Assembly (NCBI GenBank): GCA_031270845.1
Contig: JAISXF010000067.1
Span: 1 to 35,320 of the forward strand
DNA: 35,320 bases
DNA from: Prevotellaceae bacterium
Lineage (GTDB): Bacteria > Bacteroidota > Bacteroidia > Bacteroidales > UBA932
Direction: 5' to 3'
Of this stretch, positions 1 to 35,145 are shown piece by piece; position 1 is the first letter of the stretch; each line of letters opens with the position of its first letter. The translations under genes were made by a program, and so were the position numbers. The notes beneath the pieces were generated by a model. It ran no database searches. It saw nothing but the letters and a program-made list of their open reading frames with translations, and had not been told where the DNA came from.

Positions 1-1
1 A

Positions 2-1201
2 CTATCTCGCGTGGGAGGTCTCAACCATTCTCAAACAGCAAACCACCGGGGAGGACTGCTTGGGAAAATAGATGCCTCACTTAACCAAAAACTGCAAAAG
101 GTTAAGTGGGGCGAGTTTACAATAGGCAGTTTGTTTGAAGTCGTGGGAACAAAATCGTTAGATAGTAATGCTATTACTTTTACAAAAAAGGGAATAAATT
201 TTGTTGGTAGAACATTTGAAAACAATGGAATTCAAGGAAAAATTGAAAAGCAAGATTTTGAACCTAATAAGCCATTTTCCATTACAGCAACAGTTATTGG
301 CAATTATAAATATGTAAAATATCAAAAAGAGCATTATTATTGTTCTCAAAATATCAACAAATTAACTCCAAAATTTGAAATGAGTGAAAATGTTGCTTAT
401 TTTATGATAACGAATATTTATAAATTTGTTTCTCAATATAACGGACAACAAGGTGGTTATAAATTAGAAGATATGAAAAAATTTAAAATCCACCTTCCCG
501 TTGACCAAAACAACCAAATAAATTTTGCTTTTATGGAATCATTTGTCGCTGAACTGGAAGTTCAGCGTGTCGCTGAACTGGAAGCCTACTTAAACGCTAC
601 TGGATTGACCGATTACACGTTGACCGAAGACGAACAAAAGGCGTTGGAAAGGTTTGAAAAAGGGGAAGTGGAGTTTGAGGAAGTGAATATTATTGATTAT
701 TTTACAATTAAAAATTCAGGCAACATTTTAGCAAAGGACATTGTAGAAAACAGTGGCAATATTCCGTATTTGTCTGCTTCAAAAGAAAATAACGCAGTAA
801 GTTCTTATATTTTATATAACGAAAAATTTATTGATAAAGGAAATTGTGTGTTTATAGGTGGAAAAACTTTTGTTGTAAGTTATCAAGAGAAAGATTTTTT
901 CTCGAATGACAGCCATAATTTATCTTTATATTTGATTGAAAGAGAAAAACAAAACAGATTTACAAATTTATGTTTTGCAACTTGCATAAACAAATCATTA
1001 AGTCCTTTGTATTCTTGGGATAATTCAATCAGCAAAGCAAAAATCAAAAAAGACAAAATTTCATTACCTACCACCGCCACCCACCCCGATTACGCTTTTA
1101 TGCAGACCTTAATTTCGGCGGTTCAGAAGTTGGTAATCGCCGATGTAGTGCGGTATGCCGACAGAAAGATAGCGACGACGAAGAGCCTTTTAGACGTTTA
1201 G
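2..1201 (+). CDS. Type I restriction-modification specificity subunit (HsdS-like), 5' end truncated by window edge
   Basis: Frame is open to the left edge (ORF track starts at GTG 11). Two target-recognition-domain-like halves joined by the helical spacer 'ELEAYLNATGLTDYTLTEDEQKALERFEKGEVEFEEV', typical of HsdS proteins. Confidence 0.8.
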   Translation, partial: LSRVGGLNHSQTANHRGGLLGKIDASLNQKLQKVKWGEFTIGSLFEVVGTKSLDSNAITFTKKGINFVGRTFENNGIQGKIEKQDFEPNKPFSITATVIGNYKYVKYQKEHYYCSQNINKLTPKFEMSENVAYFMITNIYKFVSQYNGQQGGYKLEDMKKFKIHLPVDQNNQINFAFMESFVAELEVQRVAELEAYLNATGLTDYTLTEDEQKALERFEKGEVEFEEVNIIDYFTIKNSGNILAKDIVENSGNIPYLSASKENNAVSSYILYNEKFIDKGNCVFIGGKTFVVSYQEKDFFSNDSHNLSLYLIEREKQNRFTNLCFATCINKSLSPLYSWDNSISKAKIKKDKISLPTTATHPDYAFMQTLISAVQKLVIADVVRYADRKIATTKSLLDV

Positions 1202-3953: not shown

Positions 3954-4046
3954 TTATCTTTTCTTTTTATGACGATTCTTACGAAGACGTTTTTTGCGTT
4001 TATGCGTAGACATTTTATGTCTTTTTCTTTTTTTTCCGCTCGGCAT
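3954..4046 (-). CDS. 30-aa highly basic protein MPSGKKRKRHKMSTHKRKKRLRKNRHKKKR, resembling the small Bacteroidota AURKAIP1/COX24-domain (ribosome-associated type) protein
   Basis: Manual translation of the minus strand from ATG (4046-4044) to TAA (3956-3954). Composition and sequence match the tiny Lys/Arg-rich protein commonly found in Bacteroidota; absent from the ORF track because of its length. Confidence 0.85.
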   Translation of the reverse strand: MPSGKKRKRHKMSTHKRKKRLRKNRHKKKR

Positions 4047-4066
4047 AAATCTGTGTGTTCAATTAA

Positions 4067-4357
4067 TTATTTTACTTTCACATTTGTTTTCACCCGATTA
4101 CTAAACACTTTCGCCGGTTTGAACGCCGGGATGTTATGTTCGGGGATCACCAATGTCGTGTTTTTGGAAATATTGCGAGCTGTTTTCTTCGCACGCTTTT
4201 TCACAATAAAACTTCCGAAGCCGCGCAAATATACATTCTTGTTGCTCGACAACGAATTTTTTACTACTTCCATAAACGTTTCTACCGTCCTTTGGACGTT
4301 TACTTTTTCAATGCCAGTACTTTTGGCAATTTCATTAACAATGTCTGCTTTTGTCAT
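4067..4357 (-). CDS. HU/IHF family DNA-binding protein
   Basis: MTKADIVNEIAKSTGIEKVNVQRTVETFMEVVKNSLSSNKNVYLRGFGSFIVKKRAKKTARNISKNTTLVIPEHNIPAFKPAKVF; classic HU/IHF fold signature. Confidence 0.95.
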   Translation of the reverse strand: MTKADIVNEIAKSTGIEKVNVQRTVETFMEVVKNSLSSNKNVYLRGFGSFIVKKRAKKTARNISKNTTLVIPEHNIPAFKPAKVFSNRVKTNVKVK

Positions 4358-4403
4358 AATTTTTTAATTTTAATTAGTTTCTTTATTTTAACAAATTTGA
4401 ATG

Positions 4404-4433
4404 CAAAAGTACAATAATTTTTTGACATACAAA
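4404..4433 (-). promoter_or_regulatory. Bacteroidota-type promoter for the HU gene (TTTG-N18-TACTTTTG)
   Basis: Minus strand: TTTG at 4433-4430, TACTTTTG at 4411-4404. Confidence 0.6.
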
Positions 4434-4571
4434 AAAATATTTGCCAAAAAACAAAATATTTTTCAACATTTTTTATTTTGCCTGTTTATTTCATCTTTTT
4501 ATACTGGGGTATCCGGCCATACACCTATTATATATATGGTGTAATTTTCGTTCTTTCATCAAATCTAAAAA

Positions 4572-5038
4572 TAACAAATGTAAATATATTAATATACAAA
4601 TGTAATAATTATTGGTAATAATCCTTTCGGTTTACAAATGTAGCAATCCGCGTCTGACAAGATTTTTATTACATTTGTAAATCGTCCATAATTATACAAA
4701 TAATATACTTAAAATCAGTGATTTTAAAATTTTACTTATTCTGCTGTTTGCAATAAATTCTGCACAGTTAGCCTTCTTACCCCTAACGGATTGATAAAAT
4801 ACTTTTTCTAAAAGCAAAAACACTTAAAACCCACTACTTTTTGCATATTTATATGAAGGATAGCTATCATTTATGGCTTCCTATAGTTAATGCGTTTTTT
4901 TACGGTTATATTCAATCGAATAATGATTAGTTTGCCGGATTAGGCATTTGCAGGTATTACAAATGTAAATTATACGCTGATTACAAATGTAAACTAAATT
5001 ATGCTTACATTTGTATCTTTAAAAGTTTACAAATATGA
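4572..5038. promoter_or_regulatory. Eight TTAC-N4-GTAA operator-like sites upstream of the XRE regulator
   Basis: Sites at 4572, 4594, 4632, 4669 (inverted), 4957, 4981, 5005 (inverted) and 5027, close to TTACAAATGTAA. The last overlaps the ATG at 5035. The proximal four are spaced 24/24/22 bp. Confidence 0.8.
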
Positions 5039-8163: not shown

Positions 8164-8172
8164 CGGCTCGCT

Positions 8173-8273
8173 GAAAGTTGAAAGTTGAGAGTTGAAAGTT
8201 GCCTGCGGCAGGTACAATAAATATGGTTACTCGCCTGTCGCCATTTTCAACTCTCAACTCTCAACTCTCAACT
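8173..8273. repeat. Inverted heptamer microsatellite arms (GAAAGTT/GAGAGTT ... AACTCTC)n
   Basis: 8173-8201 GAAAGTTGAAAGTTGAGAGTTGAAAGTTG; 8245-8273 TTTCAACTCTCAACTCTCAACTCTCAACT. Confidence 0.9.
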
Positions 8274-8303
8274 AAAAAAAGGGCGAACACACCGGTTCGC
8301 CCT
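8274..8303 (-). terminator. Rho-independent terminator GGGCGAAC/GTTCGCCC for the SusE/F-like gene
   Basis: On the minus strand an 8-bp stem is followed by T7. Confidence 0.8.
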
Positions 8304-18670: not shown

Positions 18671-18701
18671 GACAATAGTGAGCCGCTCGCTGACCTTAAC
18701 G

Positions 18702-18955
18702 AGTCTTCCGTTATCCTTAACGAGTCTTCCGTTATCCTTAACGAGTCTTCCGTTATCCTTAACGAGCCTTCCGTTATCCTTAACGAGTCTTCCGTTATCC
18801 TTAACGCGCCTTCCGTTGAACTCAACGAGCCTTCCGTTGAACTCCACGCGCCTTCCGTTGAACTCCACGCGCCTTCCGTTGAACTCCACGCGCCTTCCGT
18901 TGAACTCCACGAGCCTTCCGTTGAACTCAACGAGCCTTCCGTTGAACTCAACTTT
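18702..18955. repeat. 21-bp tandem array, 12 copies, two subfamilies (CTTCCGTTATCCTTAACGAG / CTTCCGTTGAACTCAACGAG)
   Basis: Direct count of 'CTTCCGTT' every 21 bp. Confidence 0.97.
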
Positions 18956-26330: not shown

Positions 26331-26607
26331 TGCAGGACGAGAAAATCAACTGATTTTCTTTCGCCGCACCGAGCAGGACGAGAAAATCAACTGATTTTCT
26401 TTCCCCGCTCCGAGCGAGACGAGAAAATCAACTGATTTTCTTTCGCCGCACCGAGCGAGACGAGAAAATCAACTGATTTTCTTTCGCCGCTCCGAGCGAG
26501 ACGAGAAAATCAACTGATTTTCTTTCCCCGCTCCGAGCGAGACGAGAAAATCAACTGATTTTCTTTCCCCGCTCCGAGCGAGACGAGAAAATCAGGTGAT
26601 TTTCTGA
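26331..26607. repeat. 41-bp tandem hairpin array, 7 copies (core AGAAAATCA-AC-TGATTTTCT)
   Basis: Direct count of GAAAATCAactGATTTTC; perfect 9-bp arms in copies 1-6, GG loop in copy 7; flanking GAGCG...CGCTC. Confidence 0.97.
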
Positions 26608-28683: not shown

Positions 28684-28732
28684 AAGGATGAAAAAAGGCG
28701 CTGCGCGCGTAGCGCTTTTTTTATCCTTTTTC
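28682..28732. terminator. Bidirectional terminator between convergent OmpA-like gene and radA
   Basis: GGATGAAAAAAGGCGCT ... AGCGCTTTTTTTATCC long imperfect stem flanked by A/T runs; overlaps the radA stop. Confidence 0.75.
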
Positions 28733-30094
28733 ATTTCGGAATACGGCGCGCAGCAGTTCGTCCATTTTGGATACCGCTATTATTTCCATGCTTTTTGTGG
28801 GGGGCAAGCCTTTTTGATTGTAGCGGGAAATAAATATCCGCTCGAATCCTGTTTTTTCCGCTTCGGCAATCCGCTGGTCAATGCGGGCGACGGGGCGGAT
28901 TTCGCCACTCAGTCCGACTTCCGCCGCAAAGCAATAGCGCGACGGTATCGGGATGTCGAAGTTCGACGAGAGGATGGCCGTTACCACCGCCAAATCGACT
29001 GCCGGATCGACCACTTTCAGGCCGCCGGCCATGTTCAGGAATACGTCTTTGATTGCTAACTTAAAACCCGCGCGCTTCTCCAGTACGGCCAGCAGCATAT
29101 TCATCCGGCGGACGTCGAACCCTGTCGCCGACCGCTGGGGCGTCCCGTAGGCGGCGCTGCTGACCAGCGCCTGGGTTTCTATCAGCAGCGGACGGATACC
29201 GTCGAGCGTTGCCGCTACGGCTATACCGCTCAGGGCGCTGTCGTGTTGCGTAATGAGTATTTCCGACGGGTTGCTTACTTCGCGCAGTCCGCTGCCCAGC
29301 ATTTCAAAGATGCCGATTTCGGCCGTTGAGCCAAAGCGGTTTTTGATACTGCGAAGCAGCCGGTAGGCATGATGCCCGTCGCCCTCGAACTGCAATACGA
29401 CATCGACAATATGCTCGAGCACCTTCGGGCCGGCGATGCTGCCGTCTTTCGTAATATGCCCGATAATAAAAATCGGGATGCCCGTCTGCTTGGCAAATTT
29501 GAGCAACTGCGCCGCGCATTCGCGGATTTGCGAAATGCTGCCTGCCGACGACTCCACCCGTTCGGAAAACAGCGTCTGGATGGAGTCGATGACCATAAAG
29601 CGGGGCTGTAGCTGCTGCGCCTGTGCCAGGATGTTCTCTAAGCAGGTCTCGCCTAAAATATAACAGTTACGGCCGTCGCCGCGAAGCCTGTCGGCACGCA
29701 GTTTGATTTGCTGCGCGCTCTCTTCGCCGGCCACGTACAGTGTTTTCAGCGACGGCGCATGCAAGGCTAATTGCAGGCTCAGCGTCGATTTGCCGATGCC
29801 CGGCTCGCCGCCGATAAGCACCAGCGACCCTGTTACCAGTCCGCCGCCCAATAGCCGGTTGACTTCCCCGTTTTCGATATTTAAGCGCGGCTGCTGCTCG
29901 AAGCTGATTTCATCGACCCGTTGCGCGACCGCTTTTCCCGACGAAAAAACATCGCCGTACGCTGCGCCGCCGCCCTTACTTACGACCTCTTCTACAAACG
30001 TATTCCATTCGCCGCACGACGGGCAGCGCCCTAACCATTTCGCCGACTCAAAGCCGCACTGCTGGCAGAAATACACGGTTTTTGTTTTTGCCAT
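28721..30094 (-). CDS. radA: DNA repair protein RadA
   Basis: 'YFCQQCGFESAKWLGRCPSCGEWNTFVEE' zinc finger; 'LIGGEPGIGKSTL' Walker A; 'KNRFGSTAEIGIFEM' KNRFG motif. Confidence 0.97.
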   Translation of the reverse strand: MAKTKTVYFCQQCGFESAKWLGRCPSCGEWNTFVEEVVSKGGGAAYGDVFSSGKAVAQRVDEISFEQQPRLNIENGEVNRLLGGGLVTGSLVLIGGEPGIGKSTLSLQLALHAPSLKTLYVAGEESAQQIKLRADRLRGDGRNCYILGETCLENILAQAQQLQPRFMVIDSIQTLFSERVESSAGSISQIRECAAQLLKFAKQTGIPIFIIGHITKDGSIAGPKVLEHIVDVVLQFEGDGHHAYRLLRSIKNRFGSTAEIGIFEMLGSGLREVSNPSEILITQHDSALSGIAVAATLDGIRPLLIETQALVSSAAYGTPQRSATGFDVRRMNMLLAVLEKRAGFKLAIKDVFLNMAGGLKVVDPAVDLAVVTAILSSNFDIPIPSRYCFAAEVGLSGEIRPVARIDQRIAEAEKTGFERIFISRYNQKGLPPTKSMEIIAVSKMDELLRAVFRNEKG

Positions 30095-30162
30095 GTTATT
30101 TGTTTTTTGTTATTCCATATATTATTTAAAGATGCAAAGCTACGAAAATACAGGCACATTAG

Positions 30163-30221
30163 GAACGATGAACGATGAACGATGAAGTATGAAGTATGAA
30201 GTATGAAGTATGAAGGATGAA
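30163..30221. repeat. Left 9-bp microsatellite arm (GAACGATGA/GAAGTATGA)n
   Basis: GAACGATGAACGATGAACGATGAAGTATGAAGTATGAAGTATGAAGTATGAAGGATGAA. Confidence 0.95.
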
Positions 30222-30231
30222 CTCGTTATTC

Positions 30232-30690
30232 GGGGAAAGTCTCTCCACGTCGTCGAGCGACTTTTTTTCCATAGGGGGAAAGTCTCTCCACGACGTGGAG
30301 CAACTTTCTCCCTATGGGGGAAAGTCTCTCCACGACGTGGAACGACTTTCTGCCTATGGGGGAAAGTCTCTCCACGTCGTGGAGCGACTTTCCCCCTATG
30401 GAAAAAAATTTCTCAGCGAAAAATTTCTCCGCATTGCTGAGACACTTTTTACATATGGTAGAAAGTCTCTCGACGTCGTCGAGCAACTTTTTACATATGG
30501 TAGAAAGTCTCTCGACGTCGTCAAGCGACTTTTTACATATGGTAGAAAGTCTCTCGACGTCGTCAAGCGACTTTTTACATATGGTAGAAAGTCTCTCGAC
30601 GTCGTCAAGCGACTTTCTACCTATTGCGAAAAATTTCTCAGCGAAAAATTTCTCAGCATTGCGGAGACACTTTCTACCTATTGCGAAAAA
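30232..30690. repeat. 42-bp hairpin array: 8 units of AAAGTCTCTCCACGnCGTGGAGCGACTTT type plus 2 units of a second hairpin type
   Basis: Manual alignment of ten units; see finding on compensatory changes. Confidence 0.95.
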
Positions 30691-30735
30691 TCTCACAGCC
30701 GTTCCGCTTAACCGCCTAACATAATCCCGATGCCG

Positions 30736-30797
30736 GTTCATAGTTCATCGTTCATCGTTCATACCTCATACTTCATACTTCATACTTCATACTTCAT
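30736..30797. repeat. Right microsatellite arm, inverted relative to the left arm (GTTCATCGTTCAT...CTTCATACTTCAT)
   Basis: Reverse complement ATGAAGTATGAAGTATGAAG...GAACGATGAACGATGAAC uses the same units as 30163-30221. Confidence 0.95.
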
Positions 30798-30808
30798 AAT
30801 TAATTTAG

Positions 30809-30816
30809 TACCTTTG
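30809..30816 (+). promoter_or_regulatory. -7 element TACCTTTG for the beta-eliminating lyase gene
   Basis: Exact TACCTTTG 23-30 nt before the start codon; no clear TTTG at -33. Confidence 0.5.
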
Positions 30817-30838
30817 CGGCCTTTTCTACCAAACAAGA

Positions 30839-32311
30839 ATGAAGATGAATAAAGAGAACACCGTTAAAATCAAATTTTACAATGGCGAGACCATCCCGCT
30901 GGAATTGCACAAGGCGCGGGTGGTTCAGAAATTAAACCTTGTGCCTGTCGAGCGCCGGCTGGAAGCGCTGCACGAAGGCGGCTTCAATACGTTCCGGCTC
31001 ACCACGCAGGACGTGTTCCTCGACATGCTCACCGATAGCGGCACCAACGCCATGAGCGACCGGCAGCTTGCGGCCATGATGCACGCCGATGACGCCTACG
31101 CCGGCTCGCAAAGCTTCTTCCGCCTCCAGCAGGCGGTCGAAGAGGTGCTGAAGAAAAAGTATTTCCTGCCGGTTCATCAGGGGCGTGCGGCCGAAAACGT
31201 GCTGGCGAAAGCCTATATTACGAAAAACGCCGGTCTGATTCCGATGAACTATCATTTCACCACCGCGCTCGCGCACATTACCCAATACGGCGGCCGGATT
31301 GTCGAGTTGCTTTACGACGAAGCGTACTGCATCGCCTCGGCGCATCCGTTTAAAGGCAATATGCACATCGAAAAGCTCGAAGCCGTCATCCGTGAACACG
31401 GGCGCGAGACGATACCGTTCATCCGCATGGAGGCCTCGACCAACCTGATAGGCGGGCAGCCGTTCTCGGTTCAAAACCTGCGCGAGGTGCGGCAAATCGC
31501 CGACCGCTACGGGCTGCGGGTCGTTCTCGATGCCAGTTTGCTCGGCGAAAACGCATGGCTGGTTATCCGGCGTGAGCCGGAGTTCGCGAATGCCACGATG
31601 GCCGAAGTCATTGCCGAAATAACGGGGCTCTCCGATATTGTATATTTCTCGGCGCGCAAGCTCAGCTCGTCGCGCGGCGGCGGCATCTGTACCAACGACC
31701 TGACGATATACCGCGAGCTCGAAGCGCTCATCCCCCTCTTTGAAGGCTTTTTGACCTACGGCGGCATGTCGGTGCGCGAAATTGAGGCGATGGCCGTCGG
31801 GCTGTACGAAACGCTCGACGAAACGATGATTTGCCAAAGCCCGCAGTTTATCGCCTGGTTGGTCGATTCGCTTACGGCCAAAGGCGTGCCGATGGTTACG
31901 CCGCCGGGCGTCCTCGGCGCGCATGTCGATGCGATGACAATGTGCGCGCATATCCCGCAAACACAATATCCGGCCGGTGCGCTCGCGGCGGCGTTCTACC
32001 TGATTTCCGGCGTCCGTGGCATGGAGCGCGGGTCGGTATCGAGCCAGCGCGACGCCAGCGGAAACGAAACCTATGCCGATATGGAACTGTTGCGGCTGGC
32101 CGTACCCCGGCGGGTTTTCACGCTCTCGCAACTCAAATATGTAGAAGACCGCTTGGTGTGGCTCCACGAAAACCGGCGCCTCATAGGCGGCTTAAAGTTT
32201 GTGTATGAACCGCCGGTACTGCGCTTTTTCATGGGCGGATTAGCCCCCGTTTCGGACTGGCCTGAACAGTTGATCGCCAAATTTAAGGCCGACTTCGGCG
32301 ATAGCCTGTGA
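30839..32311 (+). CDS. Tyrosine phenol-lyase/tryptophanase family (beta-eliminating lyase), divergent
   Basis: 'DVFLDMLTDSGTNAMSDRQLAAMMHADDAYAGSQSFFRL', 'PVHQGRAAENVL', 'HPFKGNMHIEKLE', 'LTYGGMSVREIEAMAVGL', 'RLAVPRRVFT', 'GLKFVYEPPVLRFF'. Confidence 0.88.
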   Translation: MKMNKENTVKIKFYNGETIPLELHKARVVQKLNLVPVERRLEALHEGGFNTFRLTTQDVFLDMLTDSGTNAMSDRQLAAMMHADDAYAGSQSFFRLQQAVEEVLKKKYFLPVHQGRAAENVLAKAYITKNAGLIPMNYHFTTALAHITQYGGRIVELLYDEAYCIASAHPFKGNMHIEKLEAVIREHGRETIPFIRMEASTNLIGGQPFSVQNLREVRQIADRYGLRVVLDASLLGENAWLVIRREPEFANATMAEVIAEITGLSDIVYFSARKLSSSRGGGICTNDLTIYRELEALIPLFEGFLTYGGMSVREIEAMAVGLYETLDETMICQSPQFIAWLVDSLTAKGVPMVTPPGVLGAHVDAMTMCAHIPQTQYPAGALAAAFYLISGVRGMERGSVSSQRDASGNETYADMELLRLAVPRRVFTLSQLKYVEDRLVWLHENRRLIGGLKFVYEPPVLRFFMGGLAPVSDWPEQLIAKFKADFGDSL

Positions 32312-34800: not shown

Positions 34801-34850
34801 CAGCACAGCACAGCACAGCACAGCACAGCACAGCACAGCACAGCACAGCA
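34801..34850. repeat. Pentanucleotide SSR (CAGCA)10
   Basis: Ten perfect 5-bp units. Confidence 0.99.
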
Positions 34851-34870
34851 CACCCTATTCTCAATTATAA

Positions 34871-35145
34871 GGTAGCGCACATGTGTAGCCGGTCTCCCGG
34901 AGCTTCCGGGGGAGCAGCGCACATGTGTAGCCGGTCTCCCGGAAGCTCTGGGGAAGCAGCTGCCTATGTCAGCTGGTCTCCCGGAAGCTCTGGGGAAGCG
35001 GCTGCCTATGTCAGCTGGTCTCCCGGAAGCTCTGGGGAAGCGGCTGCCTATGTCAGCCGGTCTCCCGGAAGCTCTGGGGAAGCGGCTGCCTATGTCAGCC
35101 GGTCTCCCAGAAGCTCCGGGAAAGCGGTCCCCTATGTCAGCCGGC
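34871..35145. repeat. 42-bp tandem hairpin array, 6 copies plus partial unit
   Basis: 'GGTCTCCC' at 34891, 34933, 34975, 35017, 35059, 35101: exact 42-bp period. Nested stems CAGCCG/CGGCTG and CCCGGA/TCCGGG (or TCTGGG). Confidence 0.97.

Follow-up and report, generated by a model that had tools for sequence, protein, structure and literature searches.

Between two genes of a Prevotellaceae genome lies an array of 42-bp hairpin units in which both sides of a stem base pair differ from one unit to the next. Does such a paired change mean that the dyad itself is maintained, beyond the linear repeat, and does it act as RNA or as DNA? The window, which is the whole stretch of DNA analysed here (35,320 nucleotides), contains the array at 30236-30697, where direct reading and TRF resolve eight 42/43-bp units and two 57-bp v units. 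The array is intergenic, with radA (minus strand) on one side and tnaA (plus strand) on the other:

28721-30094, minus strand: radA, with matches to AAA_25/KaiC-type ATPase, LapB-type zinc ribbon, ChlI and Lon_C; the name is a reading of these domains.
30134-30142, minus strand: putative -7 element of Bacteroidetes type, TAGCTTTGC, directed at radA and lying outside the element, from a motif scan.
30163-30221, plus strand: left heptamer arm (GAACGAT/GAAGTAT)n, 8.4 copies by TRF; inverted partner of 30737-30798, 86-90% complementary.
30219-30235, plus strand: leader GAACTCGTTATTCGGGG, six exact matches in its own genome and none with the reversed control.
30236-30264, plus strand: dyad of u1, CTCCACGTCGTCGAG, the hybrid CTCCACG-T-CGTCGAG with C.C at pair 11.
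30279-30391, plus strand: u2-u4, core of C-G type with GGGG spacers; dyads at 30279-30307, 30321-30349 and 30363-30391.
30420-30448, plus strand: dyad of v1, CTCCGCATTGCTGAG, CTCCGC..GCTGAG with a C.T mismatch, preceded by a 15-bp duplication of GCGAAAAATTTCTCA type.
30462-30616, plus strand: u5-u8, core of G-C type with GTAG spacers; 29-bp dyads starting at 30462, 30504, 30546 and 30588.
30645-30673, plus strand: dyad of v2, CTCAGCATTGCGGAG, CTCAGC..GCGGAG with an A.G mismatch; the v2 form is also present in the copy on contig C42.
30698-30736, plus strand: tail GCCGTTCCGCTTAACCGCCTAACATAATCCCGATGCCGG, 39 bp, found eight times in the genome (six exact and two near copies).
30737-30798, plus strand: heptamer arm on the right, (TTCATAC)n, in inverted orientation to the left one (TRF).
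30809-30817, plus strand: putative -7 element of Bacteroidetes type, TACCTTTGC, directed at tnaA and lying outside the element, from a motif scan.
30839-32311, plus strand: tnaA, with a Beta_elim_lyase match from which the name is read.

The order of the units is that of a draft assembly. Unit 1 measures 43 bp against the 42-bp period, and the v units reach 57 bp through the 15-bp duplication. Two open reading frames across the array (30217-30711 and 30226-30741; 164 and 171 aa) were rejected as repeat artefacts: the 43-bp unit shifts the frame, and no Pfam match exceeds the cut-off. The element has no coding capacity, as is expected of a MITE.

Along the array, 29-bp dyads (AAAGTCTCTC-core-GAGCRACTTT) take turns with spacers that form a second dyad, TTTCTAC-ATATG-GTAGAAA or TTTCCCC-CTATG-GGGGAAA, both arms of which differ between the unit types. 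Because the array is periodic and largely self-reverse-complementary, a palindrome axis recurs every ~21 bp. Periodicity and one reflection place the second axis at half the period by geometry; what has to be explained is the symmetry across the whole unit.

The exchange of C-G for G-C on both arms, reported in the first-pass annotation, can be read directly: u2 (30279), u3 (30321) and u4 (30363) carry CTCCACG...CGTGGA(G/A), whereas u5 (30462) is CTCGACGTCGTCGAG. Units u6-u8 are also of G-C type and end in CGTCAAG, with one inner-stem C.A mismatch each. For u2, the inner stem CTCCACG proposed earlier stands and the outer GACTTT does not, as the unit ends GAGCAACTTT and its outer stem is mismatched; u3 ends GGAACGACTTT. 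Direct reading also confirms u1 as a hybrid with a single C.C mismatch.

Its interpretation as a preserved intermediate is not supported: four copies (C40, which is the window copy, C74, C42 and C98) have the C.C hybrid next to the leader, and both parental arms exist. The hybrid is also the second unit in C42, and the copies on C67 and C55 start with a perfect C-G unit. Accordingly, a recombination junction or a unit passed on by descent describes u1 better than a step of compensation does. The two v units vary reciprocally, as had been noted, and their sequences were given correctly; the paired compensation seen in them falls away, each being mismatched, so that they are reciprocal hybrids. 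Perfect v-type dyads exist elsewhere in the genome, as CTCAGC..GCTGAG in C31 and C67 and as CTCCGC..GCGGAG in C74. As reciprocal recombinants, v1 and v2 fit recombination better than stepwise compensation.

The genome (G000; 2.01 Mb in 116 contigs, 85% complete) holds at least eight copies of the element, a lower bound because several are cut at contig ends. Besides the window copy, related arrays lie on C74, C42, C31, C55 (twice), C67, C58 and C98, and more distant ones on C39 (twice), C48 and C92. Leader and tail recur around units that differ, and in most copies heptamer arrays in inverted orientation lie beyond these ends, the left one resembling (GATGAAC)n and the right one (GTTCATC)n. 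This is the layout of a MITE with an internal minisatellite: dispersed copies sharing their ends around a tandem array. The copies on C74 and C42 are adjoined by promoter/hairpin sequence related to window 34801-35144, where a TAGCTTTG-type motif is followed by (CAGCA)n and then by a 42-bp array (GGTCTCCCGGAAGCTCTGGGGAAGC + CTGCCTATGTCAGC).

Units of one array mostly share their inner core and spacer type (in C40, those of one half do), and the two combine freely from array to array. The C-G core goes with GTAG in C55 and with GGGG in the first half of C40; the G-C core goes with GTAG in C74 and the second half of C40, and with GGGG in C42, C31 and C58. Uniformity within arrays and mixing between them amount to concerted evolution together with recombination. 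The C-G to G-C switch inside the window array lies where two modules meet, both similar to other copies, and TRF reports a period of 225 in two copies; the C40 array looks like a fused pair of modules.

Is the dyad maintained as such? We collected 58 units, of which about 35 (35-36) are distinct. At stem pair 11, C-G (16), G-C (29) and A-T (2) all occur, together with C.C (5), A.G (3), C.T (1), G.G (1) and G.T (1), and two-sided change is also found at pairs 9, 12 and 14. Over 36 distinct units, 83.7% of cells are paired, compared to 33-48% with a slid partner and 78.1% after shuffling. We then used a null in which the parsimony changes of each column are placed on random branches of the unit tree, the tree being an imperfect model for recombining units. 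Against this null, summed G is 106 versus 42 (9/2000) and extra pair types number 8 versus 4.1 expected (2/2000); pairs 9, 11 and 12 reach p values of 0.018-0.05, and the count of pairs changed on both sides is only borderline (101/2000). Pairing above slid partners, shuffles and the tree-based null indicates that the dyad is maintained between unit families, as the first-pass annotation had proposed. At the outer pairs 6 and 7, over half of the units have a mismatch, so that the unit is an imperfect palindrome with recurrent internal mismatch, as in REP/BIME elements.

To place the array in its genome, we sampled 373 kb, made up of the window and of 338 kb taken from 20 contigs among C1-C26. 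This sample contains 157 tandem arrays (42 per 100 kb), mostly intergenic and dominated by periods of 7, 14, 21 and 42 bp, compared to 10-11 arrays per 100 kb in two genomes of the same family (G012, G019). The period is a multiple of 7 in 114 of the 157, and 94 of these 114 lie outside open reading frames of at least 150 aa, although such frames make up 87% of the DNA. The 21-bp period alone accounts for 37 arrays, against 16 for the remaining periods from 18 to 24. One congener (G001) is similar, with 42 arrays per 100 kb and 37 of 51 at multiples of 7; the pattern is weaker in other congeners, and the samples of G002, G004, G008 and G094 are small.

Most arrays of about 42 bp (10/14, Fisher 7e-15) and about a third of those of about 21 bp (11/31, 1.5e-7) are significantly self-reverse-complementary, most of them unrelated in sequence; as some arrays are interrelated, these P values overstate independence. 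None of the few arrays in G012 and G019 is self-reverse-complementary. Across 31 arrays, 15.6% of paired positions (best axis) are polymorphic compared to 35.3% of unpaired positions, a difference matched by none of 1000 random axes. The effect is absent in a small congener sample (7 arrays, p 0.18).

The window contains further arrays. At 8172-8275, the core CCTGCGGCAGGTACAATAAATATGGTTACTCGCCTGTCGCC sits between (GAAAGTT)n and (AACTCTC)n, and similar cores on C54, C33, C101, C111 and C17 sit between (ATGAAGT)n and (ACTTCAT)n; in this core type the arm sequence varies and the arms remain reverse complements. An array of 41 bp at 26336-26605, with alternating dyads (AGAAAATCAACTGATTTTCT), is unrelated in sequence to the array at 30236-30697 and has axes every 20.5 bp. 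The 21-bp array at 18691-18952 passes from CGTTATCCTTAACG to CGTTGAACTCAACG, both palindromic, with CGTTGAACTCCACG between. In a congener, a 41-bp dihedral array, CCGTGCGTGCGGAAAGTGTCTCCCAATTTGGGGCGCGTTTT, occupies L077 1-380 (G008:C205). The G+C content is 0.30-0.32 in window 1-1000 and 4001-5000 compared to about 0.55 elsewhere; these parts are possibly foreign DNA.

TAnnTTTG is a promoter motif of Bacteroidetes. The window copy lies upstream of both flanking motifs of this kind, which suggests, as a reading of sequence, that the array is untranscribed. Together with the absence of an encoded protein and of an Rfam match (over the window, Rfam returns two tRNAs only), this position between outward promoter-like motifs favours a DNA-level explanation. 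Location between divergent promoters is not a rule for arrays: divergent gaps are under-represented among the sampled arrays (5/42 vs 19/51, three-class p = 0.02, with crude gene calls from longest open reading frames), and the window copy is an exception.

We therefore favour, at roughly an even chance, a dispersed, non-coding, MITE-like minisatellite whose dyads are kept at the DNA level. The element is built of inverted heptamer arms, a fixed leader, a minisatellite of 42-bp units and a fixed tail. Unit variants would spread inside an array by unequal exchange or gene conversion, and hybrids, among them u1, v1 and v2, would result from recombination that reshuffles these variants between copies. 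The dyads would persist at the DNA level while their own sequences drift, most likely because palindromic arms arise and are repaired by fold-back (hairpin) copying at replication, with help from the purging of copies inserted into genes. Several observations run against this reading. Outer mismatches at pairs 6 and 7 should be gone under simple hairpin-templated correction, which argues against a strong version of it. Furthermore, double-arm changes inside arrays are not in excess: genome-wide, 110 changes affect a single arm and 10 affect both, and compensated double changes number 8 versus 8.9 expected. Ongoing compensation inside arrays was not found in these counts, which comprise few events and give low power.

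Because the mismatches at pairs 6 and 7 persist, a selected, protein-bound dyad stays a serious rival, even if we consider it unlikely. A dimeric DNA-binding protein would occupy each dyad, and axes of about 21 bp, or two turns, would put neighbours cooperatively on one face of the helix. Axis spacing of 20.5-21 bp in unrelated arrays, the clustering of periods at 21 and 42, the conservation of paired sites and a TAT or CTATG-like centre shared, by eye, by the second dyad of several 42-bp families are all consistent with such a lattice. The half-site sequences, however, vary between array families, which leaves no common recognition sequence; half-period axes follow automatically from periodicity and one reflection, and two-turn phasing does not accommodate the arrays of 7 and 14 bp.

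It is rather doubtful that the array is a neutral relic, an amplified ancestral palindromic unit whose inherited symmetry decays without maintenance. The predominance of one-armed changes within arrays and the many persistent mismatches are what decay would leave. Nevertheless, many palindromic arrays are unrelated in sequence, core changes between copies are two-sided and paired sites are less variable, an effect that a neutral simulation mimics only under extreme rate heterogeneity between columns (8/200).

The weakest alternative, and to us an improbable one, is a transcribed and folded array acting as terminator, stabiliser or regulator, with compensatory substitutions under selection: it would account for covariation at several stem pairs, for very stable folds (-257.6 kcal/mol on the plus and -268.0 on the minus strand; z = -21 and -18 against dinucleotide shuffles), for terminator-like sites on the plus strand (4 vs 1.1 expected) and for the higher frequency of sampled arrays in tandem and convergent gaps, the places where one expects read-through or 3′ ends, but it is opposed by the upstream position of the window copy, by promoter-like motifs near sampled arrays that point outward in 16 cases and inward in 3 (most arrays have none within 120 bp), by RNAalifold, which retains only three pairs, by the missing Rfam match and by a wobble bias that is strand-inconsistent between the two dyads. 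Wobble pairs in dyad A number 34 for the minus and 8 for the plus strand, and the spacer dyad leans the opposite way, one arm being simply more variable. The inference of an RNA strand was dropped for this reason, and the G.U asymmetry neither supports nor excludes RNA.

On the favoured reading, that of a MITE-like minisatellite, the copies would have moved. We infer mobility from copy dispersal alone, as synteny around radA is missing in the congeners that could be read, which leaves no locus for an empty-site comparison; the heptamer flanks mask any target-site duplication. Neither a Y1 transposase (PF01797; five control genomes positive) nor a DDE_Tnp_1 transposase (PF01609) was found in the 85% complete genome; as far as a genome of this completeness can tell, neither RAYT nor a PF01609 transposase is the mover. 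No terminal inverted repeats match a resident IS; the ends show a partial GAAC..TCGGG similarity (by eye) and the inverted heptamer arms.

Among the genome contigs searched, the unit pattern is missing from other species, and the array is missing from the phages and plasmids searched. One genome from another genus of the family carries a related two-unit array, GAAAGTCTCCCAACCTGGTTGAGAGACTTTCTGCTATGG (L180 1501-1567, G094:C58), alike in layout and different in core. Further weak model matches (L181-L184, L186 and L193) were set aside as single sites or chance.

The arrays may also belong to a genus-level system, a tentative idea that we hold unlikely: unrelated intergenic minisatellites with quantised periods (7, 14, 21 and 42 bp) and dyad symmetry, with axes every two helical turns in the 42-bp arrays, would be made and kept by undescribed copying or binding machinery. 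A single hairpin array leads to a testable genome-wide rule: here and in one congener or more, tandem repeats concentrate at periods that are multiples of 7 bp, and most 42-bp arrays in the genome are palindromic though many are unrelated. If fold-back copying is true, these arrays would be a natural record of the birth and upkeep of palindromes in bacteria; if they are protein-bound, they would form a new DNA-organising lattice. The array also shows that paired arm changes need not mean RNA compensation.

Several known repeats resemble parts of this element. Intergenic direct repeats of 7 bp, such as the TAACTGA repeats, have been described in Beggiatoaceae, in cyanobacteria and in some Bacteroidetes (PMC4679880); here the heptamers are others and bracket cores as inverted arms. 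REP/BIME elements are also short, intergenic, imperfect palindromes, grouped and regularly spaced (PMC2817692, PMC8266576), but BIMEs alternate REP orientation and associate with RAYT, whereas the element described here keeps one orientation and a fixed 42-bp period, in a genome where no Y1 transposase was found. The nearest described elements are MITE464/PgRS and BrickBuilt of Porphyromonas gingivalis (PMC4596501). PgRS consists of 41-nt tandem repeats with repetitive flanks in around 10-20 copies, with no match reported outside the species (PMC4596501). It shares with our element a Bacteroidales host, repetitive flanks and, going by the description of its 41-nt unit, tandem repeats of nearly the same size (PMC4596501); it differs in its IS5-like terminal inverted repeats (GAGACTGTTGCA / TGCAACGGTCTC), of which none was seen here, in a genome without a PF01609 match. 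BrickBuilt has a 23-nt unit, a non-repetitive leader and tail of up to ~300 nt and terminal inverted repeats, whereas our element has dyadic units of 42 bp between a leader of 17 bp and a tail of 39 bp, bracketed by heptamer arms. Nonetheless, it has the same leader-minisatellite-tail plan, is intergenic and stem-loop-forming, and is limited to its species and a close relative (PMC4596501).
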